A stretch of DNA of 44,431 nt from Hansschlegelia zhihuaiae (GTDB lineage: Bacteria > Pseudomonadota > Alphaproteobacteria > Rhizobiales > Methylopilaceae): positions 79,902 through 124,332 of the forward strand of contig NZ_RYFI01000016.1 in NCBI RefSeq assembly GCF_004103825.1, written 5' to 3'. The notes under the pieces were generated by a model that saw nothing but the letters and a program-made list of their open reading frames with translations, was not told the origin of the DNA and made no database searches. The number at the start of each line of letters is the position of its first letter. Position 1 is the stretch's first letter. Below, piece after piece: positions 24,449-43,528 of this stretch. Position numbers and translations under genes: made by a program.

Positions 24449-24553
24449 AGCCGATCGAGCGAAACGCGTCGAGCCGCCTTTCGCGATCCTCACGCCAGCG
24501 CGCGGGTCATCGATCAGCGCCTTCCCCGCGCCTCGTCGCGGACGCGCCCTGCC

Positions 24554-26266: not shown

Positions 26267-26379
26267 GGGTCCTGCTCGCATGGCGGACGGACGTCGTCCA
26301 GCCGGATTGCGGACGCGTTCGCCGTCGGACTATGGCTTCGCGTCGAACCGCAAGACCGGAAGAGGACGCGCGCGAGCCG

Positions 26380-27171: not shown

Positions 27172-27192
27172 GGCGGCGGAGGGCCGATCGCC

Positions 27193-28053: not shown

Positions 28054-28209
28054 CGGACGCGCTCCTTGTTGCGCTGCAACCTCGCCGCATGATGCGCGTA
28101 AGGCACACACGGCCTGACGAGTATTGTCGAGCCAAAAATCGACAAGACCCAAGCACTGCATTGAAGTCTTAGTGACCCCATCAAGCCCGTCAAGATTCAG
28201 CGGATCAGA

Positions 28210-28229
28210 TTAGATTATATCTATTCTAA
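28210..28229. promoter_or_regulatory. Palindromic A+T-rich site before the siderophore receptor
   Basis: TTAGATTATATCTATTCTAA contains the perfect dyad TAGAT-TAT-ATCTA (28211-28223) and outer half-sites TTAGA and TCTAA. It lies 53 bases ahead of the receptor GTG start in otherwise high-GC DNA. Alphaproteobacterial iron regulators (Irr, RirA, Fur/Mur) use A+T-rich palindromes of comparable appearance, but it matches none exactly. It may also be an AraC site or contain the -10 element. Confidence 0.4.
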
Positions 28230-28281
28230 CCTGGATGGTTGTCTTGGCGTTTTACGGACGATCGGGAGTCGGGGACGTAGC

Positions 28282-30543
28282 GTGATCTACCTGTCGAAGT
28301 TGAATGCGGCGCTTCTCGCAGGCGTTGCGCTGGGCGTCATGGCGCGGGCGCCGCACGCTGCGGCGCAGCAAGCGGATGCAGTGACCGCGCTCGAAGCGAT
28401 CGAGGTTCAGGGGAGAGGCGGCGGCGCAATAGCGTTCGACGGGTCGGGCGTCGCTCCGGTCCAGGGCCATGTTCCTGCCGCCACCACGACGGGCACGAAG
28501 ACCGACACGCCGGTGGTGCTGATCCCGCAGTCGGTGGGCGTCGTCGGGCGCCAGCAGATGGACGACCTCGGCGCCCAGAAGACCGACGAGGCGGTGCGCT
28601 ATTCGGCCGGCGTCTTCTCGCAGCCCTTCGGCGAAGACGCCGACACCAACTGGTTCTTCATCCGCGGCTTCGACGCGACGCAGACCGGCGTCTATCGCGA
28701 CGGGATGCAGCTCTACTCCTTCGCCTTCGGCAACTTCTTCCAGGACTCCTGGCTGCTCGAACGCGTCGAAGTGCTGCGCGGCGCGTCCGCATCGCTCTAC
28801 GGCGGCGGCAATATCGGCGGCATCATCAATTACGTGTCGAAGCGCCCGCTGGACGCCGACTTCAATCAGATCGAAGTTGGGATCGACAACTATCCGACGG
28901 CGTTCGCGGCCTTCGACGTCAACAAGGTCATCGCGAACGATCTCGTCACCAAGGGCGATCCGCTGCCGCCCGTCTGGAAATACCGCGTCACCGGCAAGCT
29001 GGAAGGCGGCGACGGCTACGCCAAGCATGAGGACGGCATCCGCGGCGTCATCCAGGGCGCGGCGACCTATCAGCCGGACGCGGGCACCGACGTCACGGTC
29101 TACGCCAACTACACGCACGCCGACCAGAACCACGGCTCCAGCGACTTCCTGCCCTATTACGGCACGGTGAAACGCGCGACCTCCGACGACGGCTCCATCG
29201 ACCTTGGCCGCATCAGCCGGAAGACGAATTTCTCGGATCCCGACATCGACGACCATGACCGTCGGCAGTTCATGGTGGGCTACGAGCTCAACCACGACAT
29301 CGACGACGTGTGGACGGTGAACACGAAGGCGCGATTCGCCTACAGCCATCTCGAGGAAGCGCTGCTCTATCCCTTCGGTTATGGCTTCGCGGCCAGGCCG
29401 AGCGCCGGCAACACGCAGCTTGCGCGCATCAACTTCGCCCACGACACAGAAACGTTCAGCTTCACCACCGACAACAACCTCGTGGGCAAGTTCTCGACCG
29501 GCGGGATCGACCACACTCTGCTGCTCGGCGTCGACTACAAGATGTACTACATCGACGAGGTGCAGGCCTCGAGCACCGGCACGTCGGTGGACATCCACCA
29601 CCCTGATCTCAACCAGCCGCAGCCGGCGCCGATCCCCTATCTCGACGAGACGTCGAAGCTGCATCAGGCCGGCGTCTTCATCCAGGACCAGGCGCGCTTC
29701 GGCGGCGGCTGGATCGCCACGCTGAACGGCCGCTACGACCGGATGTGGCTCGATGGCGATTCCAAGTTTCTTGGCAAGGTCGAGCGGAACGAGGGCAAGT
29801 TCAGCGGCCGCGCCGGCCTCGGCTACGAGTTCGAAAACGGCGTCGTGCCGTATGTGAGCATCGCCACCACCTTCAATCCGCTCGTCGGCTTCAACAACAC
29901 CCCTAACGGGATCGAGTCCTACAAGCCCGAAACCGGCCTGCAGTATGAGGCGGGCGTGAAGTGGTCGCCGACCGCCTTCCCGGCAATCTTCAGCGCGTCT
30001 GTGTTCGACCTCAAGAAGAAGAATTATCTCTCGGGACCGTTCAACGCCCAGACCCAGATCGGCGAGGTCCGCTCGCGCGGCGTCGAATTCGAGGCGCAGG
30101 CGAACCTCTCCGAGAACTGGAAGCTCCTCGGCGCCTTCACGGCTTACGACCTGGAGATCCTGAAGGGCGACAGCGCCCGGCTAGATCCGCTCACTGGCTT
30201 GCCCTTGTCGCTCAAGGGCCAGCAGCCCTATCTCGTGCCGGAGGTCATCGCTTCGGCCTTCCTCGACTACACCTTCACCCAAGGCGGACTGAAGGGACTG
30301 AGCCTTGGCGGCGGCGTACGCTATGTCGGCAAGTCGGAAGCGACGCAGGACCCGAACACCGTGACGGTTCCCTCCGCCACCCTGTTCGACGTCGCCGTGC
30401 GCTACCAGTGGGACAACTACAAGATCAGCCTCAACGTGACGAACCTGTTCGACAAGCGCTTCGTCTCAGGCTGCCAGGGCATCAACGTCTGCTCCTATGG
30501 CGAGGCCCGCAGGGCGCTCGTGAAGGCGAACTATACGTGGTGA
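28282..30543 (+). CDS. TonB-dependent ferric siderophore receptor
   Basis: 753 residues from a GTG start with GGGGA seven bases upstream. A signal peptide (LNAALLAGVALGVMARAPHAAAQ) is followed by a plug domain with IPQSVGVVGRQQM, FIRGFDATQTGVYRDGMQL and the LLERVEVLRGASASLYGGGNIGG block typical of siderophore receptors. The remainder is a 22-strand type barrel with alternating residues, and it ends NLFDKRFVSG..YGEARRALVKANYTW with a terminal aromatic, as outer-membrane proteins do. It imports a ferric siderophore, probably hydroxamate-type given the fhu-like partners. A canonical TonB box is not obvious, although the EAIEVQG stretch is in the right place. It is coupled by a GTGA overlap with the binding-protein gene. 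Confidence 0.92.
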   Translation: MIYLSKLNAALLAGVALGVMARAPHAAAQQADAVTALEAIEVQGRGGGAIAFDGSGVAPVQGHVPAATTTGTKTDTPVVLIPQSVGVVGRQQMDDLGAQKTDEAVRYSAGVFSQPFGEDADTNWFFIRGFDATQTGVYRDGMQLYSFAFGNFFQDSWLLERVEVLRGASASLYGGGNIGGIINYVSKRPLDADFNQIEVGIDNYPTAFAAFDVNKVIANDLVTKGDPLPPVWKYRVTGKLEGGDGYAKHEDGIRGVIQGAATYQPDAGTDVTVYANYTHADQNHGSSDFLPYYGTVKRATSDDGSIDLGRISRKTNFSDPDIDDHDRRQFMVGYELNHDIDDVWTVNTKARFAYSHLEEALLYPFGYGFAARPSAGNTQLARINFAHDTETFSFTTDNNLVGKFSTGGIDHTLLLGVDYKMYYIDEVQASSTGTSVDIHHPDLNQPQPAPIPYLDETSKLHQAGVFIQDQARFGGGWIATLNGRYDRMWLDGDSKFLGKVERNEGKFSGRAGLGYEFENGVVPYVSIATTFNPLVGFNNTPNGIESYKPETGLQYEAGVKWSPTAFPAIFSASVFDLKKKNYLSGPFNAQTQIGEVRSRGVEFEAQANLSENWKLLGAFTAYDLEILKGDSARLDPLTGLPLSLKGQQPYLVPEVIASAFLDYTFTQGGLKGLSLGGGVRYVGKSEATQDPNTVTVPSATLFDVAVRYQWDNYKISLNVTNLFDKRFVSGCQGINVCSYGEARRALVKANYTW

Positions 30544-31466
30544 TCGACATGCGGGCGGGAGACGCCTCCCCCGCCCGCGACATCTGCCGGACGACCCGCC
30601 GCGCCCTCCTCGCAGCGGGCGCGGCTTTCGCGTCTCTCGGCCTGTCGCGCGCGGCGGCGGCGCAGACCGCGCCGCGGCTCGCCGCGATCGACTGGGCGAT
30701 GCTGGAGACGGCCCTCGCGCTCGGCGTCGCGCCGGTCGCCGCGACCGAACTGCTGCTGTTCAGGAAGACCGCCGTCGAGCCCTTCGTCCCCGAGGCCGTC
30801 GCCGATCTCGGCCTGCGCGGCGCTCTGAGCTACGAACAGCTTTATGCCTCTCGGCCGGATCTCATCCTGAGTTCGCCCTGGTATGAGAACCGCGCCCACG
30901 TCCTGTCGCGCATCGCGCCCGTCGCGAGCTTCTCGATCTATGAGCCCGGGCGGCCGCCCTATGACCTCGCGGCAGCCGCCACCCGCGCGCTCGGCGAACG
31001 GATCGGCCTGTCCGACGAGGCGTCGCGCGTGGTGGCGGAGGCCGACGCCGAGCTGGATGCGGCGCGCGCCAGGCTGCTCCCCCTCGCGGGACGGCCGGTC
31101 CTCGTCATGAATCTCGCCGACGCGCGGCATTTCCGGGCGTTCGGCGCCGACAGCATGTTCGGCGACGTCGCGCGGCGGCTCAGGCTCGGCCTCGCCTGGG
31201 CGGAGCCGACGCGCTTCGGGGCCTATCCGACGGTCGGGGTCGAGGCGCTCGCCGGCATGACCGAGGCGATCGTGGTCAATGTCGGCCCGACCTCCCCCTC
31301 GGCGCTCGCCGAGATGCGCGCGAGCCCACTGTGGCGCGCCATGCCGCCGATCGCGAAGGGACGCTTCATCGACCTCGAGCCGGTCAACCCCTACGGCGCG
31401 CTGCCGGCCGCGAGACGCTTCGCCCGACTGGCCTCCGAAGCTCTTCAGCCGCTCGCGGATGGCTGA
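30540..31466 (+). CDS. fhuD: Siderophore periplasmic binding protein, FhuD-like
   Basis: 308 residues from GTG 30540, which overlaps the receptor stop; ATG 30549 is the alternative. The N-terminus RTTRRALLAAGAAFASLGLSRAAAAQ is a twin-arginine-type signal. The mature protein has the two-lobe metal-receptor pattern: RLAAIDWAMLETALALGVAPVA, LSYEQLYASRPDLILSSPWY, and GVEALAGM near the C-terminus. FhuD proteins bind ferric hydroxamates in the periplasm and hand them to FhuB-FhuC. Its stop overlaps the start of the permease gene by eight bases, so receptor, binding protein and permease form one operon. Confidence 0.88.
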   Translation: MIDMRAGDASPARDICRTTRRALLAAGAAFASLGLSRAAAAQTAPRLAAIDWAMLETALALGVAPVAATELLLFRKTAVEPFVPEAVADLGLRGALSYEQLYASRPDLILSSPWYENRAHVLSRIAPVASFSIYEPGRPPYDLAAAATRALGERIGLSDEASRVVAEADAELDAARARLLPLAGRPVLVMNLADARHFRAFGADSMFGDVARRLRLGLAWAEPTRFGAYPTVGVEALAGMTEAIVVNVGPTSPSALAEMRASPLWRAMPPIAKGRFIDLEPVNPYGALPAARRFARLASEALQPLADG

Positions 31467-33402
31467 AGCCGTTCGACGACCGCGGGCGGCGCCCTGGCTC
31501 CTCTGGCTCGCGCTCGCGGCCGCCGCGGCCGCGCTGTCGCTCGACGAGATCCTCGCGCGGCTCGGTCCCGGCGCGACCGGAATCGACCACGCGCTGCTCG
31601 CCTATAGCATGCTGCCGCGCAGCGCCGTGGCGCTGCTCGCCGGCGCCGCGCTCGGCCTGTCGGGGGCGCTGCTGCAGCAGGCGCTCGACAACCCGCTGGC
31701 CGAGCCCTCGACGCTCGGCGTGTTCGCTGGCGCGCAGCTCGCGCTCGGGATAGCCGCCGTCCTCGCCCCCGAGCTCGGGCCGTTCGGGCGCGAGGGCGCG
31801 GCCTTTGCGGGCGGCGCAGGCGCGACCGCGCTGGTGCTCGCGCTTGGCTGGCGGCGCAAGCTCGATCCGGTCACTGTCGTGCTGTGCGGCATGGTGGCAG
31901 CGATGGTCGCGAGCTCGCTCACCGCGGCGCTCATCCTCGCGCGGGGGGAGTACCTCTTCGCGCTGCTGATCTGGGGCGGCGGGTCGCTCACGCAGGAGGG
32001 CTGGCGGGCGAGCCTCGCGATCGCCGCCGCGCTCGCCTTCGGCGGCGTCGCGGCGTTCGCGCTATCGAGGCCGCTTGCGACGCTCGCCACGGGCGAAGCG
32101 ACCGCACGGAGCCTCGGCGCGCCGGCGCCAGCGATCCGGATCGCGGCGCTCGGCGTCGGCGTCCTGCTCGCCACCACGGTCGCCGCGGAGGTCGGGCTGA
32201 TCGCCTTTGTGGGGCTCGCAGCGCCGACCTTGGCGCGCCTCGCCGGCGCCCGCGCTCCGCGCCACGTGCTTGCCGCGGCGCCCGCGACCGGCGCCGTCCT
32301 GCTCTGGCTGACCGACGGGATCGTCCAGCATGTCGGCTCGGGCGAGACCGTGCCGACCGGGGCCGCGACCGCCTTCCTCGGCGCGCCGCTGCTGCTCTGG
32401 CTGCTCCCGCGGCTTTACCTCGCCGATCGCCCGGCCGCGACGGCCTCGCCGCGGCGGCGCGATCCTCGGGTCGTGCTGGCGGCCCTCGCCTTGCTTGCGA
32501 TCCTCGCGGTCGCGGCCTCGCTCCTCGTCGGGAAGGACGCGTCCGGGTGGCGGATCGCGACCGGGCGCGAGTTCGCCGAACTGCTGCCGTTCCGCGCTCC
32601 CCGCGCGGCGGCGGCCGCTGCGGCCGGCGCCATGCTCGCGGCGGCGGGCGTCATCCTGCAGCGCATGACCGGCAATCCGCTCGCGGGACCCGAGGTGCTG
32701 GGCGTGGGCGCAGGCGCGGGCGTCGGACTTGCGATCGTCACGCTGTCGGTCGGCGCCGCCCCCCTGTCGCTGCAGATGGCGGGCGCCGCGCTCGGCGCCT
32801 TCGCGGCGCTCGCCGTGATGCTCGCGATCGCGGGCGGCGGGCGGCTGGGGCCGGAGCGGATGCTGCTCGCGGGCGCCGGGATCTCGGCGCTCTGCCTCGC
32901 GGCGCTCAACGCGGTCGTCGCGACCGGATCGCGCGGCGCATTCGCGATGCTCGCGTGGATCACCGGCGCGACCGACGCGGTCGGTCCGGCGCAGGCCGTC
33001 GCCGCCTCGGTCGCGGCCGTCATCCTCGTCGCGCCGATCATCCTGCTGCTCCGCTGGCTCGAGGCCTTGCCGCTCGGCGCGCCGACCGCCCGGTCGCTCG
33101 GCATGAACCTCGCCGCGTCGCGGATCGCGCTGACGGCTCTGGCCGCCTCGCTCACCGGCGCCGCGGCGCTGATCGCCGGTCCGCTGAGCTTCGTCGGCCT
33201 CGTCGCGCCGCACGCCGTCCGGGCCGCGGGCCTGGCGCGGCTCGGCCCTCACGTCCTCGGCGCGGTTCTCGCCGGCGCAGCGCTGATGACCACGGCGGAC
33301 CTGCTCGCCCGTACGGTGATCTTCCCATACCAGCTGCCGCTTGGCCTGTTCGCCTCGCTGATCGGCGGGGCCTACCTCATCGGCGCGCTCGGCCGGCGGT
33401 GA
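31459..33402 (+). CDS. fhuB: Fused iron-siderophore permease, FhuB-like
   Basis: 647 residues from ATG 31459, about twice the length of single FecCD permeases. Two homologous halves are evident. The first carries GLSGALLQQALDNPLAEPSTLGVFAG and GLIAFVGLAAPTLARL; the second carries AAGVILQRMTGNPLAGPEVLGVGAG and GPLSFVGLVAPHAVRAAG. FhuB of enteric bacteria has this same duplication. It forms the inner-membrane channel of the hydroxamate siderophore importer with the FhuC-like ATPase encoded at 26380. The sequence is extremely alanine- and glycine-rich. It ends 45 bases before the convergent LysR gene. Confidence 0.93.
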   Translation: MAEAVRRPRAAPWLLWLALAAAAAALSLDEILARLGPGATGIDHALLAYSMLPRSAVALLAGAALGLSGALLQQALDNPLAEPSTLGVFAGAQLALGIAAVLAPELGPFGREGAAFAGGAGATALVLALGWRRKLDPVTVVLCGMVAAMVASSLTAALILARGEYLFALLIWGGGSLTQEGWRASLAIAAALAFGGVAAFALSRPLATLATGEATARSLGAPAPAIRIAALGVGVLLATTVAAEVGLIAFVGLAAPTLARLAGARAPRHVLAAAPATGAVLLWLTDGIVQHVGSGETVPTGAATAFLGAPLLLWLLPRLYLADRPAATASPRRRDPRVVLAALALLAILAVAASLLVGKDASGWRIATGREFAELLPFRAPRAAAAAAAGAMLAAAGVILQRMTGNPLAGPEVLGVGAGAGVGLAIVTLSVGAAPLSLQMAGAALGAFAALAVMLAIAGGGRLGPERMLLAGAGISALCLAALNAVVATGSRGAFAMLAWITGATDAVGPAQAVAASVAAVILVAPIILLLRWLEALPLGAPTARSLGMNLAASRIALTALAASLTGAAALIAGPLSFVGLVAPHAVRAAGLARLGPHVLGAVLAGAALMTTADLLARTVIFPYQLPLGLFASLIGGAYLIGALGRR

Positions 33403-33447
33403 GCGCATGGCGACGAGCCCGGCGAATGGCCCCGCCCTCCCCCGGTC

Positions 33448-34338
33448 CTATCGACCGTCCCGGCCGAAGCTGCTGACCTCGATGGCGATATCCGCGACCG
33501 CGTCCTGCAGCGCCGTCGTCCTGCGGCCCTTGCACACCACCGAGAACGGCATCGCGGCGGGCACGGGACTGGACTCCAGGACCTTGAGCTCGCCCGCGGC
33601 GATCTCCGTCTCGTAGCAGGTCGGCGGCAGCAGGCTGACGCCGACGCCGGTCGCCGTCAGCATGGCGAGCACCGTCATGCTGTTGCAGAGGTCCGGGCGC
33701 TGCGTCGAGCCGCTCTCGGCGAGCCAGGCCGAGACGGTCTCGAAATGGATCGAGTTCTCGCCGAGCGACAGGATGCGGATCGTCGAGAAGTCGGCCGCGA
33801 CGAGCGGCCTGTCGGGGGCGACGAAGTCCCGCCCCGCCATCCACCGGAACTGGACCGCTCCCACCGGACGGGCGGTCAGCCCGACGTCGAAGGCCGGCCC
33901 GGGAATCAGCGCGATGTCGAGGTCGCCCGAGACCAGTCGCGACCTCAGCGGGCTTGTGAGCGCGATGTCGAGCTCGAGCATGATCTTCGGATAGCGCTCG
34001 CGCAGCGTCGACACGAGCTTCGGCAGCCAGGTCATCGCGACGAGCTCGGCGACGCCGACCCGGACCAGCCCCGAAAGCCCTTCGGACGGCGCGATCTGCT
34101 GGCGGATCTCCTCCTGCAGCGCGAGCGCGCGCTCCGCATAGCCGAGCAGTTCGCGGCCCTTCGCGGTGACGGTCGCCTTGCGCTGGCTGCGGTCGAACAG
34201 CGCGACGCCGAGATCCTGCTCGAGCTCCTGGATGCGCGCGGAGATCGTCGACTGCGTCGCGTTCAGCTTGTTGGCCGCGGCCGCGAAGCTGCCGAGCCGG
34301 ACGATCTCCACGAAGGTCTGCAGCTGTCGGAAATTCAT
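33448..34338 (-). CDS. LysR-family transcriptional regulator
   Basis: 296 residues. The N-terminal helix-turn-helix is FVEIVRLGSFAAAANKLNATQSTISARIQELEQDLG, followed by LFDRSQRKATVTAKG. The effector domain includes LVRVGVAELVAMTWLPKLV, DLDIALIPGPAF and GVGVSLLPPTCYE. It is divergent from the MHS symporter gene, the standard LysR arrangement, with a conserved 37-bp element 40 bases ahead of its start. The same element recurs before the flavin monooxygenase and before the second flavin reductase, so it probably controls all of these genes together. The effector is likely the substrate or an intermediate of that pathway. Confidence 0.92.
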   Translation of the reverse strand: MNFRQLQTFVEIVRLGSFAAAANKLNATQSTISARIQELEQDLGVALFDRSQRKATVTAKGRELLGYAERALALQEEIRQQIAPSEGLSGLVRVGVAELVAMTWLPKLVSTLRERYPKIMLELDIALTSPLRSRLVSGDLDIALIPGPAFDVGLTARPVGAVQFRWMAGRDFVAPDRPLVAADFSTIRILSLGENSIHFETVSAWLAESGSTQRPDLCNSMTVLAMLTATGVGVSLLPPTCYETEIAAGELKVLESSPVPAAMPFSVVCKGRRTTALQDAVADIAIEVSSFGRDGR

Positions 34339-34377
34339 CGGCGCCTGTGGGTTCGATCGAAGTTCCCGAAGCCTAAT

Positions 34378-34414
34378 GATCGAAAATTATCGATTTCAAT
34401 CGAAATTTTTGGAC
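34378..34414. promoter_or_regulatory. Conserved 37-bp element, copy A (lysR/symporter promoter)
   Basis: Starts GATCGAAA, then after eight bases TTTCAATC, an inverted repeat with one mismatch, extended by GA. The copies at 36135 and 38039 align without gaps and share GATCG, AAA, and TTTCAATCGA. It lies between the divergent LysR and symporter genes, so it is the best candidate for the primary LysR operator. It is strikingly A+T-rich for this genome. Confidence 0.65.
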
Positions 34415-34641
34415 CATAGGCTCTCCGAAGATCAGGCGCCGAAGGACCTGATCGCGACAAGAAGATCGCCCGTGCTTCCAGCGAGCATCGGAACGCCCGC
34501 CCTGTCCCGCATCGCGTGACGGCGTGCGTCCGTGCGTCCGCGGTCCGCGCCTCGTCAGCGCGACCATCGAGCGGCGCCTTCGGAAGTCCGTGCGGCCGGG
34601 TGTGGAAACGACGGTCCCCGCTGGGACGCTAGGAGGACTTC

Positions 34642-36036
34642 ATGGCCACTCGTGTGGGGACGGCAAGCGCCGCCGACGCCGACAACGCGCGCCACGCCAA
34701 ACGCGCCGTCATCGCGTCGACCGTCGGCACGATGATCGAATGGTACGACTTCTATCTCTATGGGCTGGCCGCCGCGCTGGTGTTCGGCAAGCTCTACTTT
34801 CCGGGGAGCGACCCTTATTCGGCGACGCTGCTGTCGTTCTCGACGATGTTCGTCGGCTTCGTGGCGCGTCCGCTCGGCGCGCTGATATTCGGCCATTACG
34901 GCGACCGGATCGGCCGCAAGACGACGCTGGTCGTCACGCTCATGCTCATGGGCGTCAGCACCGTGCTGATCGGCCTGCTGCCGACCTATGAGAGCATCGG
35001 CATCTGGGGCGCGGTCGGCCTCGTCGTGCTGCGCGTCTTCCAGGGCATCGGCGTTGGCGGCGAGTGGGGCGGCGCGGTCGCGGTCGCGACCGAATGGTCG
35101 AAGTTCAACAAGAGCCGCGGCTTCGCCGCGAGCTGGCCGCAGTTCGGCTCGCCGCTCGGCATGCTGATGGCCGTCGGCGCACTGACCCTGACCGCCCAGT
35201 TCGGCGACGCCGCCTGGTTCGAGAGCATCGGCTGGCGCATTCCCTTCCTGATCAGCGCCGTGCTGATCGCCGTCGGCCTGTACATCCGCCTCGGCGTGCT
35301 CGAGACACCGGTGTTCCAGAAACTGCAGCAGGAGAACAAGGTCGCGCAGGCGCCGGTCATGGACGCCATACGCGGCTACTGGAGGCAGATCCTGCTCACC
35401 TGTCTGATCCGCACCGGCCAGCAGGCGCCCTTCGTGATCTTCACGACGTTCCTCTTGTCCTACGGCACCAAGACCCTCGGCTTCGAGAAGCAGTTCCTGT
35501 TCAACTGCGTTCTCGTCGCCTGCGCGTTCTCGCTGTTCGCCAACCCGTTCTTTGGCTGGGCGTCCGACAAGATCGGCCGCAAGCGGATGTACATGATCGG
35601 CGCGGCCACGATGCTGGCCTTCGCCTTCCCGTATTTCTGGATGCTCGACAGCAAGATCCCGGCGTTGGTCGTGCTTGCGATCGTGATCTCGATCCCGATC
35701 CACGACATGCAATGGGCGCCGCTCGCGGCCTTCACGACCGAGAGCTTCCCGCCGAGCGTCCGCTACTCGGGCTCCTCGATCGGTTACCATCTCGCCTCGC
35801 TCACCTCGGGCGGGCCGGCGCCGCTGATCTGCGCTTATCTGCTGCACACCTACGGTTCGTCGACGGCGATCAGCGTATACCTCGCGGTGATAGCGGCGAT
35901 CAGCTTGACCTCGGCGTACTTCCTGAAGGACCGATCGCGCAGCGACTACGCGACGAACGAGGGTTGGGCGCGCGGCGAAACCGAGAAAGGTCTCGGCGCT
36001 GCGACCCCGAAGCCGGTCCCGGCGGCTTCGAGCTGA
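34642..36036 (+). CDS. MHS-family metabolite:proton symporter (major facilitator)
   Basis: 464 residues from ATG 34642, with AGGAGG as an excellent ribosome binding site. Twelve membrane segments are predicted. MHS hallmarks are VIASTVGTMIEWYDFYLYGL at the N-terminus, FVARPLGALIFGHYGDRIGRKTTL (cytoplasmic loop 2-3 motif), FQGIGVGGEWGGAVAVATEW and GWASDKIGRKRMYMIG. Relatives (ProP, KgtP, ShiA) import organic acids, osmolytes or aromatic acids with protons. It is divergent from the LysR gene and precedes the monooxygenase unit, so it probably imports the substrate of that pathway. Confidence 0.92.
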   Translation: MATRVGTASAADADNARHAKRAVIASTVGTMIEWYDFYLYGLAAALVFGKLYFPGSDPYSATLLSFSTMFVGFVARPLGALIFGHYGDRIGRKTTLVVTLMLMGVSTVLIGLLPTYESIGIWGAVGLVVLRVFQGIGVGGEWGGAVAVATEWSKFNKSRGFAASWPQFGSPLGMLMAVGALTLTAQFGDAAWFESIGWRIPFLISAVLIAVGLYIRLGVLETPVFQKLQQENKVAQAPVMDAIRGYWRQILLTCLIRTGQQAPFVIFTTFLLSYGTKTLGFEKQFLFNCVLVACAFSLFANPFFGWASDKIGRKRMYMIGAATMLAFAFPYFWMLDSKIPALVVLAIVISIPIHDMQWAPLAAFTTESFPPSVRYSGSSIGYHLASLTSGGPAPLICAYLLHTYGSSTAISVYLAVIAAISLTSAYFLKDRSRSDYATNEGWARGETEKGLGAATPKPVPAASS

Positions 36037-36062
36037 GCGACGGCGCGTCCGTCCTCAGGCCT

Positions 36063-36091
36063 GCGGGCCGGCGTCCTCGGCGCCGGTCCGC
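36063..36091 (+). terminator. GC-rich hairpin after the symporter gene
   Basis: GCGGGCCGGCG (36063-36073) pairs with CGCCGGTCCGC (36081-36091) with a single G-T wobble around a seven-base loop, followed by CAAAATCCC. It begins 26 bases after the symporter stop and lies before the next conserved element, consistent with termination of the symporter transcript. Confidence 0.5.
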
Positions 36092-36134
36092 AAAATCCCG
36101 AGTGAGCCGCCCATCGAATTTATCGAAGGCTCTC

Positions 36135-36171
36135 GATCGGAAAGTCTCGTTTTCAATCGAGTTTATCGACG
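36135..36171. promoter_or_regulatory. Conserved 37-bp element, copy B (monooxygenase promoter)
   Basis: Reads GATCGGAAA at the left and TTTTCAATCGA in the middle; at 30 or more of 37 positions it agrees with the copy at 38039. An extra partial repeat, ATCGAATTTATCGAAGG at 36113-36129, precedes ATCGAGTTTATCGACGC at 36156-36172 by 43 bases, suggesting a second protein contact. It is about 105 bases upstream of the monooxygenase start. Confidence 0.65.
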
Positions 36172-36274
36172 CTTAGCGTCCTGAAAGACGCGGGGGGCGC
36201 CCTCGCATCGACCGGAAAGCAGCGGCGGAAGCCTTCCTGGGCCAGCCCGTCCCAACGTCACAGGGAAAGCCATC

Positions 36275-37441
36275 ATGTCGGATCAAGCCCAACGGACGAA
36301 GCCCGGCCTGTCCCCGCTCGACGCGGTCAAGGCCCAGCCGATGATGCTCGGGCTGTTCCTGCCGATCCAGTCCGGCGCCTGGAGTCCCTCGACGGCGCCG
36401 CGCTCGACCGACTGGACCTTCGACTACAACGCGAAGTGCACGGTGATGGCCGAGAATCTCGGCTTCGACCTCGTCTTCGGCCTCGCCCAGTGGATGGGCA
36501 AGGGCGGCTATGGCGGCGAGATGCGGTTCCGCGAGAACGCCACCGACCCGCTGCTCGTGACAGCCGGCCTCGCGGCCCTGACCAAGCGCATCCTGCTCGT
36601 GTCGACGGTGCACATCCTCTACGGCTGGCACCCGCTCCACCTCGCCAAGTTCGGCGCGACTATCTCCGAGATGAGCGGCGGGCGCTGGGGCCTCAACATG
36701 GTCACGGGCTACAAGAAGAGCGAGTTTGAGATGTTCGGGCTCGAGCAGATCGAGCACGATCAGCGCTACGTCATGGCCGATGAGTTCGTGACAATCATGA
36801 AGCGGCTTTGGTCGGAGGACGAGAACCTCACGATGGACGGCCGCTTCTGGAAGCTGAAGAACGCCTTCGTGGCGCCGAAACCCGCCGGCGGCAAATGCAT
36901 CCTGGTCAACGCCTCGTCGTCCGGCGCGGGCCTCGCCTATGCGGTCAAGCATTCGGACCTGATCTTCGTGACGAGCCCGGCCGGCGCCGATCTCGACAAG
37001 GCCTGCGAGGCGCTGCCCGCGCACACCGCCAAGATCAAGCAGGCGGCGAAGGAGATGGGACGCGACATCCGCATCCTGATCAACCCGCACGTGATCTGCC
37101 GCGAGACGGAAGCCGAGGCGCGGGCGCAATACGACGCCATCCTGCGCGGGGCCGACCCGGTCGCGGCGCAGAACTTCTACCAGACCTTCACCGGCGGCGA
37201 TCAGACCTCGTGGAAGGCGGCGACTAAGGAGCAGTGGACGATCGGCGGCAACGTCCACATCGTCGGCACGCCCGAACAGGTCGTCGACGGCTTCAGGCGG
37301 CTGCGGGCCGCGGGCTGCGACGGCATGCAGGTCAATTTCTACGATTTCATCCCGGACCTCGCCTTCTTCGGCGAGCGCGTCCTGCCGTTGATGCGCCAAG
37401 CGGGCCTCAGGCTCGACGGGCCGCTCGCCGCGGCCGCGTGA
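36275..37441 (+). CDS. Flavin-dependent monooxygenase, luciferase-like (RutA/SfnG-related)
   Basis: 388 residues from ATG 36275 (AGGGA upstream). The bacterial luciferase-like barrel shows LGLFLPIQSGAWSPSTAP at the N-terminus, AENLGFDLVFGLAQW, LAALTKRILLVSTVHILYGW, the block ATISEMSGGRWGLNMVTGYK and IVGTPEQVVDGFRRL near the C-terminus. SGGRFGVNLVTGW is the matching segment of RutA, the pyrimidine-ring-opening monooxygenase; dimethylsulfone monooxygenase SfnG is also close. These enzymes use reduced FMN made by a separate reductase. A flavin reductase gene follows after five bases. It lacks the other rut genes, so the substrate is probably another N-heterocycle, amide or sulfone. Confidence 0.88.
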   Translation: MSDQAQRTKPGLSPLDAVKAQPMMLGLFLPIQSGAWSPSTAPRSTDWTFDYNAKCTVMAENLGFDLVFGLAQWMGKGGYGGEMRFRENATDPLLVTAGLAALTKRILLVSTVHILYGWHPLHLAKFGATISEMSGGRWGLNMVTGYKKSEFEMFGLEQIEHDQRYVMADEFVTIMKRLWSEDENLTMDGRFWKLKNAFVAPKPAGGKCILVNASSSGAGLAYAVKHSDLIFVTSPAGADLDKACEALPAHTAKIKQAAKEMGRDIRILINPHVICRETEAEARAQYDAILRGADPVAAQNFYQTFTGGDQTSWKAATKEQWTIGGNVHIVGTPEQVVDGFRRLRAAGCDGMQVNFYDFIPDLAFFGERVLPLMRQAGLRLDGPLAAAA

Positions 37442-37446
37442 GACGG

Positions 37447-37998
37447 ATGAGCGACGCCGAGTTGGCGGAGCCCGGCGTCGAGGCGGCCGGGCTCCGCGCC
37501 GAGTCCAGACCCGTCAGCCCCGACGAATTGAGGACCTTCGCCGGCCATTTCGCGACCGGCGTCGCGGTCGTCACCTCCCGGAGCCCCGACGGGACGCTCT
37601 GCGGCGTCACGATCAACGCGGTCTCGTCGCTGTCGCTCGACCCGCCGCTGTTCCTCGTCTGCCTCGACCACCGCTCGAACACGCTCGGCTCCGTGCTCGA
37701 AAGCCGGCGCTTCGGCCTGCACTTCCTCGCCAGGGATCAGGCCCGGCTCTCGCAGGTCTTCGCCTCCAAGGTCACGGACAAGTTCGCGGCTGTCGACCAC
37801 GAGATCAGCGCGAACGGCGTCCCGCTTCTCGGCGGCGTACTCGCGGCCGCCGAGTGCCGCGTGACCGAGGTCTGCCCCGGCGGCGACCACACGATCGTGC
37901 TCGGCGCGGTCGAGGCCATCCGGGCGAATGGCGGCGAGCCTCTGCTCTACCATCGCGGCGCCTATGCGGCGCTCAAACCCGCGACGCCACACGCGTGA
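37447..37998 (+). CDS. Flavin reductase, RutF/HpaC-like (first paralog)
   Basis: 183 residues, five bases after the monooxygenase stop. The flavin-reductase split-barrel domain begins near residue 30: LRTFAGHFATGVAVVTSRSPDG, then GVTINAVSSLSLDPPLFLVCLDHRSNT, FGLHFLARDQ and closing GGDHTIVLGAVEAI..PLLYHRGAYA. The preceding 27 residues are an extra, acidic N-terminal extension absent from the second paralog. It makes FMNH2 from NAD(P)H for the adjacent monooxygenase. It is closely similar along its length to the protein encoded at 38162, which indicates a tandem duplication. Confidence 0.92.
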   Translation: MSDAELAEPGVEAAGLRAESRPVSPDELRTFAGHFATGVAVVTSRSPDGTLCGVTINAVSSLSLDPPLFLVCLDHRSNTLGSVLESRRFGLHFLARDQARLSQVFASKVTDKFAAVDHEISANGVPLLGGVLAAAECRVTEVCPGGDHTIVLGAVEAIRANGGEPLLYHRGAYAALKPATPHA

Positions 37999-38038
37999 CG
38001 CCGGCAATGCCCAATAATCGTCTTTTTCGAACCAACCA

Positions 38039-38075
38039 GATCGAAAAGTCTTGTTTTCAATCGAATTTCTCGACG
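38039..38075. promoter_or_regulatory. Conserved 37-bp element, copy C (second flavin reductase promoter)
   Basis: Begins GATCGAAAAGTC and contains TTTTCAATCGAATTT, in gap-free register with the copies at 34378 and 36135. It is 86 bases upstream of the second flavin reductase gene, in the only sizeable gap between the two reductase genes. The position implies a third, separately controlled transcription unit: reductase, CoA-transferase, crotonase. Confidence 0.65.
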
Positions 38076-38161
38076 AGTAGGGTCATGGTCAAGCCGGGCG
38101 ACAAGTCCCGCGCCAATGCCATGCCCGGGCCAGCGAGCCCGCCGTTCCGGAGGACGTCCTG

Positions 38162-38665
38162 ATGTCAGCCGCCGCCCCGATCACCTCGACGGATCTCCGC
38201 GCCTTCGCGGGCCATTTCGCGACAGGCGTCGCGGTCGTCACCAGCCGCAGCCCCGAGGGCGACCTCGCGGGCGTCACGATCAACGCGGTGACGTCGCTAT
38301 CGCTCGACCCGCCGCTCTTTCTGATCTGCCTCGACCACAAGTCGAACACGCTCGGCACGCTGCTGGCGAGCGGACATTTCTGCCTCCACTTCCTCTCCAA
38401 GGGGCAGACCGAGGTCTCGAAGATCTTCGCCTCGAAGCGAGAGGACAAGTTCACGGAGGCCTCCTACCGGATCGGCGAGACCGGCAGCCCGGTGCTCGAC
38501 GGCGTGCTGGCGGCCGCGGAATGCCGCCTCGCGGAGATCTGCCCGGGCGGCGACCACACGATCATCATCGGACAGGTCGACAAGGTGCATATCCACGGCG
38601 GCGAACCGCTGCTCTATCATCGCGGCGCCTATGCGGCCCTCGAGCAGGAAAGGCTGGCGGCGTGA
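38162..38665 (+). CDS. Flavin reductase, RutF/HpaC-like (second paralog)
   Basis: 167 residues from ATG 38162. It shares most positions with the first paralog: LRAFAGHFATGVAVVTSRSPEG, GVTINAVTSLSLDPPLFLICLDHKSNT, IFASKREDKF, GGDHTIIIGQVDKV and PLLYHRGAYA. It lacks the N-terminal extension. Its own conserved promoter element lies at 38039-38075. Its stop overlaps the CoA-transferase start as GTGA, so it is translationally tied to the downstream genes. It could serve the same monooxygenase or a second, unseen one. Why a pathway needs two nearly identical reductases is unclear. Confidence 0.92.
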   Translation: MSAAAPITSTDLRAFAGHFATGVAVVTSRSPEGDLAGVTINAVTSLSLDPPLFLICLDHKSNTLGTLLASGHFCLHFLSKGQTEVSKIFASKREDKFTEASYRIGETGSPVLDGVLAAAECRLAEICPGGDHTIIIGQVDKVHIHGGEPLLYHRGAYAALEQERLAA

Positions 38666-39861
38666 GCGCACCCATGATGGCGAAGCCCCTCGAAGGCCTT
38701 CGGGTGCTCGAATTCGCGCAGATCGCCGCCGGCCCCTTCACCGGGATGCTGCTAGCCGACCTCGGCGCCGACGTCGTGAAGATCGAGCGGCCCGACGGCG
38801 GAGACGGCATGCGCGGCTGGCCGCCGCTGCATCCGGGCGAGGGCGGGGAGGAGGACGTCTACAGCGGCAACTTCACCTCGCTCAACCGCAACAAGCGGTC
38901 CGTCGCGCTCGACATCAAGGACGAGGCCGATCTCGCGAGGCTCTACGAACTGGTCGCGAACGCCGACGTCTTCATCGAGAACTTCCGCCCCGGGGCGCTG
39001 AAGCGCGCGGGCCTCGGCTACGACCAGCTGAAGGCGCGCAATCCGCGGCTGGTCTATTGCTCGATCACGGGCTACGGCCAGACCGGGCCTTATGCGCTCA
39101 AGGGCGCGTTCGACGTCACCGCGCAGGCGATGAGCGGTCTGATGAGCGTGACCGGCGAGGAGGGTCGCCCGCCCGTGAAATGCGGCGTGCCGGTCGGAGA
39201 TTTCGCGACCGGGCTCTATGCAGGCTACGTGATCCTCGCGGCCGTCATGCGGGCGCGCCAGACCGGCAAGGGCGCGCATGTCGACTGCTCGATCCTCGGC
39301 TCGCTGCTCGGGATCTCGGCGCTCCAGACGAGCGAATATTTCGGCACCGGCAAGCCGCCTCGTCGCCTCGGATCGGCGCATCCGCGCAACGCCCCCTATG
39401 CGGGCTTCCAGGCGTCCGACAAACCGTTCACGATCGCGGCCGGCAACGACAAGCTCTGGCGGGACACCTGCGCGATCGTCGGCCGTCCCGACCTTCCGGA
39501 CGACCCGCGCTTCAAAACGCAAGGCCTGCGCGCCAGGAACCAGGACGCGCTCGCCGAGATCCTGCAGCCGATCTTCGCGACCCGCACCGCCGAGGAATGG
39601 CTCACCGAGCTCGACGCCAAGGGCGTGCCCTGCGCGCCGATCAACGACTTCGCCGAGATCCTTGCCGACCCGCATGTGCGGCAGGCCGGCTGGGTGCGGA
39701 ACGTCACGATGCCGAACGGCGCGACGGCGGAAACCGTCGGCTTCCCGATCGCGATGTCGGATTACGCCTTCGAGATCACGCGGACGCCGCCTAAGCTCGG
39801 CGAGCACAATGACGAGGTCATCAGCGAATGGACGGAACCGCGCTTCGCGAAGGCCCTGTAA
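38662..39861 (+). CDS. Class III CoA-transferase (CaiB/BaiF family)
   Basis: 399 residues from GTG 38662 (GTGA overlap); ATG 38674 is an alternative. Family blocks are LEGLRVLEFAQIAAGPFTGMLLADLGADVVKIE at the N-terminus, NRNKRSVALDIK, ADVFIENFRPGALKRAGLGY, CSITGYGQTGPY and GVPVGDFATGLYAGYVI. The Asp in VGDFATG is in the catalytic position for the acyl-aspartyl intermediate. These enzymes move CoA between carboxylic acids through a mixed anhydride. Its product is probably the substrate of the crotonase that overlaps its end by 34 bases. The acyl donor and acceptor are not identifiable from sequence. Confidence 0.92.
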   Translation: MSAPMMAKPLEGLRVLEFAQIAAGPFTGMLLADLGADVVKIERPDGGDGMRGWPPLHPGEGGEEDVYSGNFTSLNRNKRSVALDIKDEADLARLYELVANADVFIENFRPGALKRAGLGYDQLKARNPRLVYCSITGYGQTGPYALKGAFDVTAQAMSGLMSVTGEEGRPPVKCGVPVGDFATGLYAGYVILAAVMRARQTGKGAHVDCSILGSLLGISALQTSEYFGTGKPPRRLGSAHPRNAPYAGFQASDKPFTIAAGNDKLWRDTCAIVGRPDLPDDPRFKTQGLRARNQDALAEILQPIFATRTAEEWLTELDAKGVPCAPINDFAEILADPHVRQAGWVRNVTMPNGATAETVGFPIAMSDYAFEITRTPPKLGEHNDEVISEWTEPRFAKAL

Positions 39862-40574
39862 GGGTCCGGCTCGACGGCCCGGAAGGGCTGCGCACGATCG
39901 CGATCGACCGGCCGGCCAAGGCGAACGCGCTCGACGCCGAGACCGTTGAGGCGCTCGCGCAGGCGGTCGCGGAGGCGGCTCAGGCCGGCGCGCCCTTCGG
40001 TTTCGGGAGCGACGGGCGCGTGTTCTGTGGCGGGTTCGACTTCACCGGCGTCGACGAGCAGAGCCAGGGCGATCTGCTGCTGCGTTTCGTCAGGATCGAG
40101 GCGCTGCTACAGGCCGTCGCTCATGCGCCAACCGCGAGCTTCGCCTTCGTCGGCGGCGCGGCCTTCGGCGCGGGCGCGGATCTCGCCTCGATCTGCGCCT
40201 ATCGCATCGGATCGCCGGAAGCGAAGTTCCGCTTTCCGGGCTTTCGCTTCGGCGTCGCGCTCGGCACGCGCCGGCTCGCCGTGACCGTCGGCCCCGACGC
40301 CGCCCGCTCGATCCTGCTCGAGAACCGCACCGTGGGAGCCGAGGAGGCGCTCGAGCTCGGACTGCTCACCCATCTCGTCGACCGCTCGGAGTTCGACGCG
40401 ACGGCGGCCCGGCTGCTTGAGGCGCATCGCGGCCTCTCCGAGGGGGCGGCGGCCCGAGTCCTGGGCCTCACCATTCCGGACACGCGCGACGCCGACATGG
40501 CGGAGCTCGTCCGCTCGCTCGAACCCGACGGGCTCCACGACCGCATCGCGCGGTACCGTTCCGGACACCGCTGA
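39828..40574 (+). CDS. Divergent crotonase-fold (enoyl-CoA hydratase/isomerase) protein
   Basis: 248 residues overlapping the CoA-transferase gene by 34 bases. The fold is recognisable from LRTIAIDRPAKANALDAETVEAL, the oxyanion segments GRVFCGGFDF and GGAAFGAGADLASICAYRIGS, then FRFPGFRFGVALGTRRLA and LTHLVDRSEF. Compared with classical hydratases (GGGCELA and QPEILLG), the first catalytic Glu is Asp and the second is Gly (FPGFRFG). The active site is therefore not that of a standard hydratase, so it may be an isomerase, hydrolase or C-C lyase of the superfamily. It is the last rightward gene before the convergent aconitase X pair. Confidence 0.85.
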   Translation: MDGTALREGPVRVRLDGPEGLRTIAIDRPAKANALDAETVEALAQAVAEAAQAGAPFGFGSDGRVFCGGFDFTGVDEQSQGDLLLRFVRIEALLQAVAHAPTASFAFVGGAAFGAGADLASICAYRIGSPEAKFRFPGFRFGVALGTRRLAVTVGPDAARSILLENRTVGAEEALELGLLTHLVDRSEFDATAARLLEAHRGLSEGAAARVLGLTIPDTRDADMAELVRSLEPDGLHDRIARYRSGHR

Positions 40575-40581
40575 AGTCTCG

Positions 40582-40597
40582 GACGCCTCGCGGCGTC
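40582..40597. terminator. Short hairpin between convergent genes
   Basis: GACGCC (40582-40587) and GGCGTC (40592-40597) pair around TCGC. The hairpin lies in the 21-base gap between the crotonase stop and the aconitase X small-subunit stop, overlapping the latter by two bases. Without a T-run on either side it is only a modest candidate for a two-way terminator. Confidence 0.35.
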
Positions 40598-41012
40598 AGT
40601 CGCGATTCAGGATCGTCACCTCGCCGGCGGCCGGATCGACCCGCAGCCTGTCGCCGGTGCGGACCTCCCTGGTGACGTCGGGGCAGTCGAAGCGGTCGAC
40701 CATCGTGACCTCTCCGAAGGCCGCGCCCTGGGCCAGGATCGTGTTGACCGAGTTGAACAGAAAGGCGAGCGGCGTGACGCCCGACTGCTTCATCTCGCGC
40801 AGCATCCAGGCCGAGGCGACGCCGCCCTTGGCGGTGTTCAGCACCAGGATGCGGTCCCGGTAGCTCTGGCCGTGAAGCTTGTGCGCGGGGCGCGAGAAGA
40901 CGCCCTGCTTGCGGTCGAGGTCGTAGCGAGCGCTGAAATTATCCTCGGCGACGAGCGCCTCGCCCTCGACGGCCGGGCCGATGCCCGGATGGCAGCGCAG
41001 AACGATCGGCAT
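40596..41012 (-). CDS. Aconitase X small subunit (swivel domain, DUF126)
   Basis: 138 residues from ATG 41012, which overlaps the large-subunit stop by one base (TGATG). The swivelling domain shows VLRCHPGIGPAVEGEALVA at the N-terminus, the FSARYDLDRKQGVFSRPAHKLHGQ segment and ILVLNTAKGGVASAWMLREM, then a C-terminal GDRLRVDPAAGEVTIL. In aconitase X enzymes this domain closes over the active site of the large subunit. Bacterial two-gene versions include cis-3-hydroxy-L-proline dehydratase. It is the downstream partner of the next gene to the right. Confidence 0.9.
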   Translation of the reverse strand: MPIVLRCHPGIGPAVEGEALVAEDNFSARYDLDRKQGVFSRPAHKLHGQSYRDRILVLNTAKGGVASAWMLREMKQSGVTPLAFLFNSVNTILAQGAAFGEVTMVDRFDCPDVTREVRTGDRLRVDPAAGEVTILNRD

Positions 41013-42259
41013 CAGAGGATCCTCCCGGCGACCGCGCAGTCGACGCAGCGCTCCATGGACGCGAGCGTCGGCTTGTAGCCATAGCCGCCGATGATGTTGA
41101 CGAGCTTGGCGGAGTTGGTGAGCAGCCGGCTCCAGCCGTTCGCCTCCGCCATCTCGCGCGCATAGCTCTGGTAGAAGCAGACGCCTTCGAGCACGATCCC
41201 GCCTGACGCCTCGATCCGGTGGGTGAAGCCCATGCGGTCGGCCGCGCCCTTGATCTCGGGCGAGGTGATGGCGATCAGCGTCGTCTCGGGGTGCACCGCG
41301 CGGCCGTCGACCAGTCCCGCGACCATCTCCATCTCGAGCAGCGAGAGCTGCGGCGCCGAGAACACCACGACGTCGACCTTGTCGCCCCTTGCGGCGTAGG
41401 TCTCGTAGAAGGCCTCGAAATCGGCATCCGTGATCGCCTCGGCCTTCGGCGCCGGACGGCCGCCGAAGGCGCTCGCGAGGTCGGGCGCCTCGGGCGTGAC
41501 GCCGGGCATATGGAACAGGGCGACCGAGCCGAAGCTCGCGGCGGCCGCGCCGAAATGCTTCAGCTCGTCGGAGTTCGGCGCGCGGTCGAGCCCGGTGATC
41601 ACCGGCACGCGCCAGTAGCCGTCGGTCCGCCGCCCGACAATGCCGCCGAGCGCCCCCCACTCGCTGAGGTCCCGCGGCCGGCGCTTGAGCTCGAAATGCA
41701 GCGTGCCGACGCGATGCCGGTCGAGGTGGTAGCCGTAGCGGGGCGTCTTGCCGGTGAGCGCGGCTGCGAGCGCCGAGGGGCCGCCCTCGAAATTGCTGCG
41801 GGCGCCGAGCACCGAGTTCGAATAGATCACCACGCCGGTGTCGCCGAAGGCGAGATGCTCGCCTTTCACGGGCGGCAGGATGGTCTGGTAGTTGATGCAG
41901 GTGTTGGTCATCATCACGCCGAGCGCCTCGAAGGCCTTGATGAGGCGCGCCTCGAGGCCGACCATCTCCTCGGTCTGCTTCAGCCGCTCATAAGCCTTGA
42001 AATCGACGCCGCGCGGGTCCGTGATGGTGGGGATCCGCACCCGCCGCTCGGCGAGCGGGGCGCGCGCGAGCTCCTCCATGAAGGCGACGCCGGTCGGCCC
42101 GGTCGCCTCGGTGTCGGCCATGATGTGGGCCTGGCCGACGGGCACGAGGTCTTCGGCGTCGAAGAAGCGCCCCACTACGACCTGATGCTCGGCCGCCCAG
42201 CGCCGGACCGGCCCCTGCGAGCCGGCGAGCATCGCCTCGGTCTCCTCGTCGAGCCTCAT
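41012..42259 (-). CDS. Aconitase X large (catalytic) subunit
   Basis: 415 residues from ATG 42259, with GGAGG close upstream. Conserved aconitase X blocks are present: VPVGQAHIMADTEATGPTGV, IPTITDPRGVDF, VMMTNTCINYQTILPPVKGEHLAF, YSNSVLGARSNFEGGPSALAAALTGKTPRYGYHLD, and near the end TNSAKLVNIIGGYGYKP and ERCVDCAVAG. Cysteines in NTCINY, EGVCFYQ and RCVDCAV are candidates for binding an iron-sulfur centre or iron ion. Known members dehydrate cis-3-hydroxyproline in bacteria or phosphomevalonate in archaea. No proline-pathway gene (racemase, pyrroline reductase) is nearby, so the substrate may be another hydroxy acid. It is divergent from an orphan TctC and a GntR regulator. Confidence 0.92.
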   Translation of the reverse strand: MRLDEETEAMLAGSQGPVRRWAAEHQVVVGRFFDAEDLVPVGQAHIMADTEATGPTGVAFMEELARAPLAERRVRIPTITDPRGVDFKAYERLKQTEEMVGLEARLIKAFEALGVMMTNTCINYQTILPPVKGEHLAFGDTGVVIYSNSVLGARSNFEGGPSALAAALTGKTPRYGYHLDRHRVGTLHFELKRRPRDLSEWGALGGIVGRRTDGYWRVPVITGLDRAPNSDELKHFGAAAASFGSVALFHMPGVTPEAPDLASAFGGRPAPKAEAITDADFEAFYETYAARGDKVDVVVFSAPQLSLLEMEMVAGLVDGRAVHPETTLIAITSPEIKGAADRMGFTHRIEASGGIVLEGVCFYQSYAREMAEANGWSRLLTNSAKLVNIIGGYGYKPTLASMERCVDCAVAGRIL

Positions 42260-42473: not shown

Positions 42474-43451
42474 ATGCGATCGATCAAAGGCTTAACCGTC
42501 GCGCTGCTCGCGCTGCTGGCCGGCCTGACGCCGGCGGCGGCGAAGGACGACTATCCCAACCGGCCCATCACCATCGTCGTGCCCTTCGCGGCCGGCGGCC
42601 CGACCGACGTGCTCGCGCGCGTCCTCGCCCAGCATATGGGCAAGACGCTCGGCCAGCAGGTGCTGGTCGAGAATCCCGGCGGGGCGGGCGGCACGATCGG
42701 CAGCGCGCAGGTCGCCCGCGCCGCGCCCAACGGCTACACGATGGTCATGGGCAATCTCGGAAGCCACGCGGCGTCCGTCGGGATCTACAAGAACCTGGCC
42801 TACGACCCCGTCAAGGACTTCGAGCCGGTGATGCTCGTCGGCACGACGCCGATGATGGTGGTGGTGAAGAAGGACCTTCCGGTCAAAACGCTCAAGGAGC
42901 TGGTCGAGTATGCGAAGGCGCATCCCGGAGAGGTCGGATACGGCACGGCCGGGAAAGGCTCCATCGGCCATCTCGCCGGCATCTCGTTCAATCAGCAGAC
43001 GGGCGCGGGGCTCAGCCACATCGCCTATCGCGGCCTGAGCCAGGCCATGACGGACGTCATCGCCGGCCAGATCGAGATGATGTTCGACCAGGTCGTGAGC
43101 GGCGCGCCGCATGTCAGGAACGGTTCGGTCAGGGCGCTCGCGGTCGCGGCCCCGAAGCGCGTCGAGATCCTTCCCGACGTCCCGACCTCAGCCGAGGCTG
43201 GCGTGCCGGGCTTCGTCACCCTCGCATGGTCGGCGCTGTTCCTCCCGAAGGACACGCCGCGGCCGGTCGTGGACAAGATCGTCGGGGCGCTCGAGGCGGC
43301 GTTCCGCGACGAGGACATTCAGAAACGCATGAAGGAGCTCGGCAACGACGTCCCGCCGCCCGAGCAGCGCACGCCGGAGGCGCTGCGCGGCTTCGTGGCC
43401 GCGGAGATCGCGAAATGGACGCCGCTGATCGAGGCCTCGGGCGAACAATAG
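42474..43451 (+). CDS. Orphan tripartite tricarboxylate-type binding protein (TctC/Bug)
   Basis: 325 residues from ATG 42474, with GGGGGAG upstream. A signal peptide (SIKGLTVALLALLAGLTPAAAKD) precedes YPNRPITIVVPFAAGGPTDVLARVLAQHM, then VLVENPGGAGGTIGSAQVARA, PNGYTMVMGN, YGTAGKGSIGHLAG and LAWSALFLPKDTP. It is a textbook Bug/TctC protein and better conserved than the one at 15988. No tctA or tctB gene follows in the window, so it either shares the TctAB pair encoded at 16975-19047, uses a permease elsewhere, or acts as a sensor protein. Its position opposite aconitase X suggests the ligand feeds that enzyme. Confidence 0.9.
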   Translation: MRSIKGLTVALLALLAGLTPAAAKDDYPNRPITIVVPFAAGGPTDVLARVLAQHMGKTLGQQVLVENPGGAGGTIGSAQVARAAPNGYTMVMGNLGSHAASVGIYKNLAYDPVKDFEPVMLVGTTPMMVVVKKDLPVKTLKELVEYAKAHPGEVGYGTAGKGSIGHLAGISFNQQTGAGLSHIAYRGLSQAMTDVIAGQIEMMFDQVVSGAPHVRNGSVRALAVAAPKRVEILPDVPTSAEAGVPGFVTLAWSALFLPKDTPRPVVDKIVGALEAAFRDEDIQKRMKELGNDVPPPEQRTPEALRGFVAAEIAKWTPLIEASGEQ

Positions 43452-43528
43452 GCCAGCCGCGGTCGGCGCGCTTGCGCAGCGCCGGCCGTCGTCTATTGAA
43501 GACTGATGTCCTCTGCAGCGGAGCCGAC

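Follow-up and report, generated by a model that had tools for sequence, protein, structure and literature searches.

The 44,431-nt window analysed here (the whole stretch from position 79,902 to 124,332 of contig NZ_RYFI01000016.1, Hansschlegelia zhihuaiae, assembly GCF_004103825.1) carries three copies of a conserved element within a cluster of genes for a LysR-type regulator, a major facilitator superfamily (MFS) symporter, a flavin mononucleotide (FMN)-dependent monooxygenase, two flavin reductases, a CoA-transferase and a crotonase-family protein. Judged by its sequence, each element looks like a LysR-type promoter, combining a T-N11-A box and a -10 box with a dyad that overlaps the -35 box. 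Taking together site architecture, conservation, genome-wide specificity and co-occurrence with LysR, all read directly from the DNA, we think it very likely that one regulator, most probably the adjacent LysR protein, activates the three promoters in an inducer-dependent manner and represses its own gene. The original prediction, made from the letters of this DNA, had proposed three copies of a 37-bp operator under the same regulator; its interpretation proved largely right but incomplete.

The copies lie on the forward strand at 34378, 36135 and 38039, as predicted, and were confirmed by both pattern search and gap-free alignment. The pattern GATCGAAA-N8-TTTCAATC matches at these places with 0, 1 and 0 mismatches, respectively, and nowhere else in the window with ≤3 mismatches. 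The resulting six matches (three places read on both strands) were reached in none of 100 dinucleotide shuffles of the window (mean 0.24 matches, maximum 3). A repeat search extended the gap-free alignment to 71 nt (34356–34426, 36113–36183 and 38017–38087), with copies 1 and 3 being 66% and 76% identical to copy 2. The claim of gap-free conservation held up, while that of a 37-bp operator did not: the conserved unit measures ~69 bp and looks like a full LysR-type promoter. The earlier description, which had recognised the dyad, had missed two parts of this unit, the -10 box and a TCGA-N5-TCGA-like box upstream. The predicted inverted-repeat core exists in imperfect form, its arms TCGAAAAC and GTTTTCAA pairing at 5, 5 and 6 of 8 positions in sites 1, 2 and 3. 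The elements are also A+T-rich, as proposed, with a G+C content of 0.39, 0.45 and 0.41 against 0.669 for the window. An RNA element (riboswitch) was rejected after an Rfam scan of 33300–40700 returned no match at gathering score.

Alignment on the core yielded 24 gap-free sites from 10 loci, namely the three of the window and 21 from related loci (L004, L005 and L007–L013), the taxa including Methylopila, Hansschlegelia, Ancylobacter, Bosea and relatives. Each of the 24 points towards the gene that follows it, for the MFS protein, the monooxygenase or the second reductase, and each is built from three blocks. Block 1, ATCGA-N5-TCGA, begins 23 bp ahead of the core and takes the T-N11-A form (TCGA-N5-TCGA) in 19 of the 24 sites, including all three of our own. 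Block 2 reads GATCGAAAAC-N2-TCGTTTTCAATCGA in majority letters and contains the dyad TCGAAAAC-N4-GTTTTCAA, of which 5 to 7 of the 8 arm positions are paired across the 24 sites. Block 3 consists of T, A and T at core positions +38, +39 and +43, invariant throughout. The -35 box sits inside the dyad: TTTCAA is exact in 22/24 sites, 17 bp ahead of TANNNT (exceptions: TTTCAG in L004 s2 and TTTTCA in L005 s2), and the exact combination TTTCAA-N17-TANNNT occurs in the window three times on the forward strand, at the three sites, and not at all on the reverse strand.

With the last base of the -10 box set as -7, the first box would be centred near -66 and the dyad near -40, and sites 1, 2 and 3 would give rise to leaders of 213, 89 and 72 nt, transcription being predicted to begin close to 34429, 36186 and 38090. 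A third, looser TCG...TCG box falls near -23, between the -35 and -10 boxes (column counts out of 24: T21 24, C22 20, G23 18, C31 16, G32 20), and in our sites 2 and 3 it reads as an exact TCGA-N5-TCGA. Three sequence features of a LysR-type promoter could be located: an imperfect dyad near -65 holding the T-N11-A box, at a position derived from the -10 box; a putative second site near -35 in all 24 aligned sites; and a regulator gene divergent to its target, both at our own locus and in 11 of 11 related loci (L004–L014).

These loci came from a search with the monooxygenase, which confirmed 87 stretches; 80 loci were retained. In L004–L014 the monooxygenase is 84–88% identical to our own and the order LysR, MFS, monooxygenase, reductase is preserved, with the CoA-transferase and crotonase genes also present in 10 of the 11 (L011 is cut by a contig end). 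The ABC permease-like, hydroxyproline dehydratase-like and TctC frames beside the block had no listed match in the 80 loci, and the flanking DNA (24001–33400 and 40581 to the end) gave a single 104-nt match to the 11 loci, in L005; the LysR-to-crotonase block is therefore conserved as a unit, and LysR is the sole regulator among its seven genes. Allowing ≤3 mismatches, the motif is present in 9 of the 80 loci (L004, L005 and L007–L013) and not in the other 71, with three sites in L004, L007 and L013, the last being the locus of Methylopila capsulata, and two in the remaining six. The more sensitive sequence model covered 21 of these 80 loci together with the window. Columns of the element are conserved over several genera, while the flanking columns vary; L009 and L011 derive from a single metagenome bin, and the sites of L011 and L012 are almost identical.

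A sequence model built from the 21 relatives' sites alone, own sites excluded, recovered our three sites with (rough) E-values of 7.5e-15, 1.1e-13 and 9.2e-11; of the 627 first-look candidates in the own genome, 150 were scored, and none apart from the three sites matched at E ≤5. The own-genome pattern search (≤3 mismatches) likewise found no place beyond the three. Scattering of the motif over unrelated loci, which the original prediction had named as the sign of a dispersed repeat, was thus not seen in either scan. Across the genus, strong sites occur in 5 of 13 genomes, and a LysR orthologue (E up to 1e-80) is found in the same five, whereas the eight genomes without the orthologue contain no strong site and, in G011, one weak match (E 0.246). 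This specificity and co-occurrence make the predicted arrangement, one regulator over three units, with the adjacent LysR as the most likely candidate, the best reading. The genus counts are not independent of the locus set, since the loci L008, L004, L013 and L007 seem to belong to G001, G008, G009 and G010, respectively, and these four genomes also contributed to the relatives-only model. Two extra model rows in G001 are true sites read in reverse. Among 297 sampled genomes of the order, searched with stricter filters and 17 candidates scored per genome shown, our own and three others of the same genus matched at E up to 0.001; a pattern search of 150 genomes returned five positives including our own, all within the genus. 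Four weak model matches lie off the cluster (E 0.14 to 0.27; G010:C67:77092, G010:C63:61898, G009:C3:480465 and G011:C1:128173) and could be either further targets or chance.

The regulator has both parts of a LysR-type protein, a PF00126 winged helix and a PF03466 substrate-binding domain, each above its cut-off. On the sequence level, regulator and site diverge together. Where LysR is ~71–81% identical to our own, it is accompanied by the full site; in two Xanthobacter loci with a LysR of 61% identity, degenerate sites are found in both promoters at the same positions (L006:7831-7896, L006:6129-6169, L014:6132-6172 and L014:7832-7872; E 3e-7 to 9.2e-7), three of the four matching the upstream box and left part alone (model positions 2–42). 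In the Methylobacterium locus L019, with a LysR of 54% identity, the relatives' model gives no match. One TCGA-N5-TCGA box lies there at L019:5709, between lysR and a reductase gene that is the first of a cluster with differing gene order; this observation is weak because 21 of 1000 shuffles also have such a box and it was first spotted by eye.

How such a promoter might work can be outlined as follows. Each element would be a sigma-70-type promoter with built-in LysR-type control: one LysR tetramer would bind at two places, the T-N11-A recognition box around -66 and the dyad around -40, which overlies the -35 box. By analogy with published LysR-type promoters, the protein would repress without inducer and activate with it: a bent complex would hold the -35 region, keeping the MFS, monooxygenase and reductase/CoA-transferase/crotonase units low, until an inducer, which is probably either the substrate taken up or a product formed early on, causes the downstream dimer to shift and the three promoters to fire together. 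Binding at site 1 should repress lysR as well; in the 10 loci measured, 18–21 nt separate the recognition box from the start codon of lysR, as would fit such autorepression. LysR binding, the direction of regulation, the start sites, the inducer and autorepression are what we infer here.

Several observations weigh against this proposal. The T-N11-A form is absent from 5 of the 24 sites, all of them lysR/MFS sites from outside the genus (L005, L009, L010, L011 and L012), and the upstream box is a weak dyad, with 85 of 144 arm pairs over the 24 sites and 1 to 6 of 6 pairs site by site. On its own, TCGA-N5-TCGA is unspecific, occurring 21 times in the window, three of these inside the elements. 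The centres at -66 and -40 are predictions because start sites are taken from the -10 box, and LysR binding and control of expression are predicted as well. Further LysR-family matches of 28–31% identity in the flanks of L007, L010, L012 and L013 mean that LysR genes as such are not rare nearby; the co-occurrence of site and LysR is partly automatic, both lying within one gene block; and the own-genome model search covered the candidate subset given above.

Within the element, conservation is highest in the dyad over the -35 box, which is also a better palindrome than the upstream box (5–7 of 8 pairs versus 1–6 of 6), as would suit a LysR protein that binds the sites yet acts mainly as a repressor, its best site being this dyad, released by inducer. 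The conserved upstream TCGA half at a fixed distance near -66 is, however, the usual activator layout. TTTCAA and TANNNT moreover match the sigma-70 consensus poorly, which is what one would expect if the promoter is activated, and we consider mainly repressive control unlikely. That a different, unlinked regulator binds the dyad, with the LysR neighbour being incidental, appears very improbable: all 11 related loci (L004–L014) carry a LysR orthologue divergent to the MFS gene, the genus genomes without the orthologue have no strong site, and the upstream T-N11-A box fits LysR; other regulators were sought in part of the frames of the loci. The nearby GntR-type frame (43226–44383), considered as the regulator, was rejected, since none of the 11 close loci matched it at E ≤1e-5. 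What speaks for an unlinked protein is that LysR binding is a prediction and that dyads over -35 boxes are also bound by other repressor families.

In our view it is hardly credible that the copies represent a dispersed repeat, or a promoter that was duplicated recently and persisted by chance, in place of a regulon. Own-genome pattern and model searches, the latter within its scored candidates, find the three sites alone, on which ground a dispersed repeat was rejected, and the conservation of columns over several genera amid varying flanks also argues against such an origin. Site 3 may nonetheless have arisen by duplication, because only the four loci that encode two flavin reductases show it (own, L004, L007 and L013), while one reductase gene is found in L005, L006, L008, L009, L010, L012 and L014; L011 was left out of this comparison because its contig ends within the reductase. 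The two reductase genes of the window are 77% alike over 300 nt. A tree of 18 reductases had long branches and was rebuilt with 15 after dropping L015, L017 and L019; a single clade of FR1 and FR2 copies was not rejected (p-AU 0.22), yet these copies are not grouped in the tree.

Table 1 Predicted regulatory sites and genes of the LysR-to-crotonase cluster (window coordinates).
Feature	Coordinates	Strand	Details
Site 1, T-N11-A box, recognition site (predicted)	34357..34369	+	TCGAAGTTCCCGA; 18 nt from lysR start codon
Site 1, core dyad overlapping -35 box, activation site (predicted)	34378..34403	+	
Site 1, promoter (predicted)	34394..34422	+	TTTCAA-N17-TAGGCT, towards MFS gene
Site 2, T-N11-A box	36114..36126	+	TCGAATTTATCGA
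Site 2, core dyad overlapping -35	36135..36160	+	
Site 2, promoter (predicted)	36151..36179	+	TTTCAA-N17-TAGCGT; another TCGA-N5-TCGA box from 36157
Site 3, T-N11-A box	38018..38030	+	TCGTCTTTTTCGA
Site 3, core dyad overlapping -35	38039..38064	+	
Site 3, promoter (predicted)	38055..38083	+	TTTCAA-N17-TAGGGT; TCGA-N5-TCGA box from 38061
LysR-type regulator, proposed regulator of the three sites	33448..34338	-	296 aa; Pfam HTH_1 5.4e-22, LysR_substrate 6.2e-30
MFS metabolite/H+ symporter (shikimate/2A0106-like)	34642..36036	+	464 aa; TIGR00883 8.2e-116, 387.3 bits, under curated cut-off 443.45
Luciferase-like FMN-dependent monooxygenase (SfnG/RutA relative)	36275..37441	+	388 aa; Pfam Bac_luciferase 3.9e-54; PDB 8t0u 1.2e-45
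Flavin reductase 1	37447..37998	+	183 aa; Pfam Flavin_Reduct 3.4e-40
Flavin reductase 2	38162..38665	+	167 aa; Pfam Flavin_Reduct 2.9e-43
Family III (CaiB-type) CoA-transferase	38662..39861	+	399 aa (GTG start assumed); Pfam CoA_transf_3 3.5e-131
Crotonase-family protein	39828..40574	+	248 aa; Pfam ECH_1 7.8e-24

Site 1 precedes the MFS symporter gene and site 2 the monooxygenase gene, with flavin reductase 1 following 5 nt behind the latter; site 3 precedes flavin reductase 2, whose gene overlaps that of the CoA-transferase, with the crotonase gene next. The monooxygenase scored 206.1 bits against the SfnG model TIGR04021 (E 9.1e-61; cut-off 382.95) and 164 bits against the RutA model TIGR03612 (cut-off 498.3), below both thresholds. 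Its solved relatives at E up to 1e-20 comprise six sequences named as SfnG-, RutA-, nitrilotriacetate-type or putative luciferase-like, and plasmid records among the matches listed (15 of 300) are, where annotated, labelled 'LLM class flavin-dependent oxidoreductase'. The conserved gene set points to a route in which an organic acid would be taken up and oxidised by the monooxygenase with reduced FMN, with CoA transfer and a crotonase step to follow. A literature search for such a gene set found no paper combining these terms, and one with the motif strings found no title on this system among the matches listed. Beside the cluster, an open frame at 41012–42259 on the reverse strand matches part of a hydroxyproline dehydratase model, and a TctC-type receptor (42474–43451) is overlapped by the GntR-type frame, which is of GntR/UTRA type.

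Published LysR-type promoters have a T-N11-A site near -65 and a second site near -35 (PMC5603801, PMC4730206), with the downstream dimer shifting upon inducer binding (PMC5603801, PMC4730206, PMC11739112). The present elements resemble those of BenM/pbenA, DntR and PnpR/PnpM in the box near -65, the site near -35, the catabolic genes and the often divergent regulator gene, and PnpR of Pseudomonas WBC-3 also controls three catabolic operons (PMC5603801, PMC4730206). They differ in regulator, motif and pathway, and in a -35 site that is strongly conserved and palindromic here, whereas the cited passages state that activation sites had yielded no conserved motif (PMC5603801, PMC4730206). The enzymes resemble the RutA/SfnG FMN monooxygenases with their RutF/HpaC-type reductases in model and structure matches and in the presence of a reductase partner; unlike in those systems, scores stay well under curated cut-offs and the neighbours are a CoA-transferase and a crotonase. 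We put forward, tentatively and as a speculative extension, that the sequence of the activation site is no less defined than that of the recognition site, that the boxes near -66, -40 and, less strictly, -23 correspond to the recognition site and to the two activation sub-sites postulated by the sliding-dimer model, and that the system controls an undescribed pathway joining a RutA/SfnG-like oxygenase to CoA activation. If so, on and off states would be legible from sequence. The conserved activation site offers a clean case for the sliding-dimer model. With the proposed control, the six enzyme and transporter genes form a single regulon that is open to testing and has a predicted regulator; whichever compound induces all three promoters would be expected to be the pathway's substrate or a product close to it. 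The kind of system, ordinary LysR-type control, is known; its members here are new.

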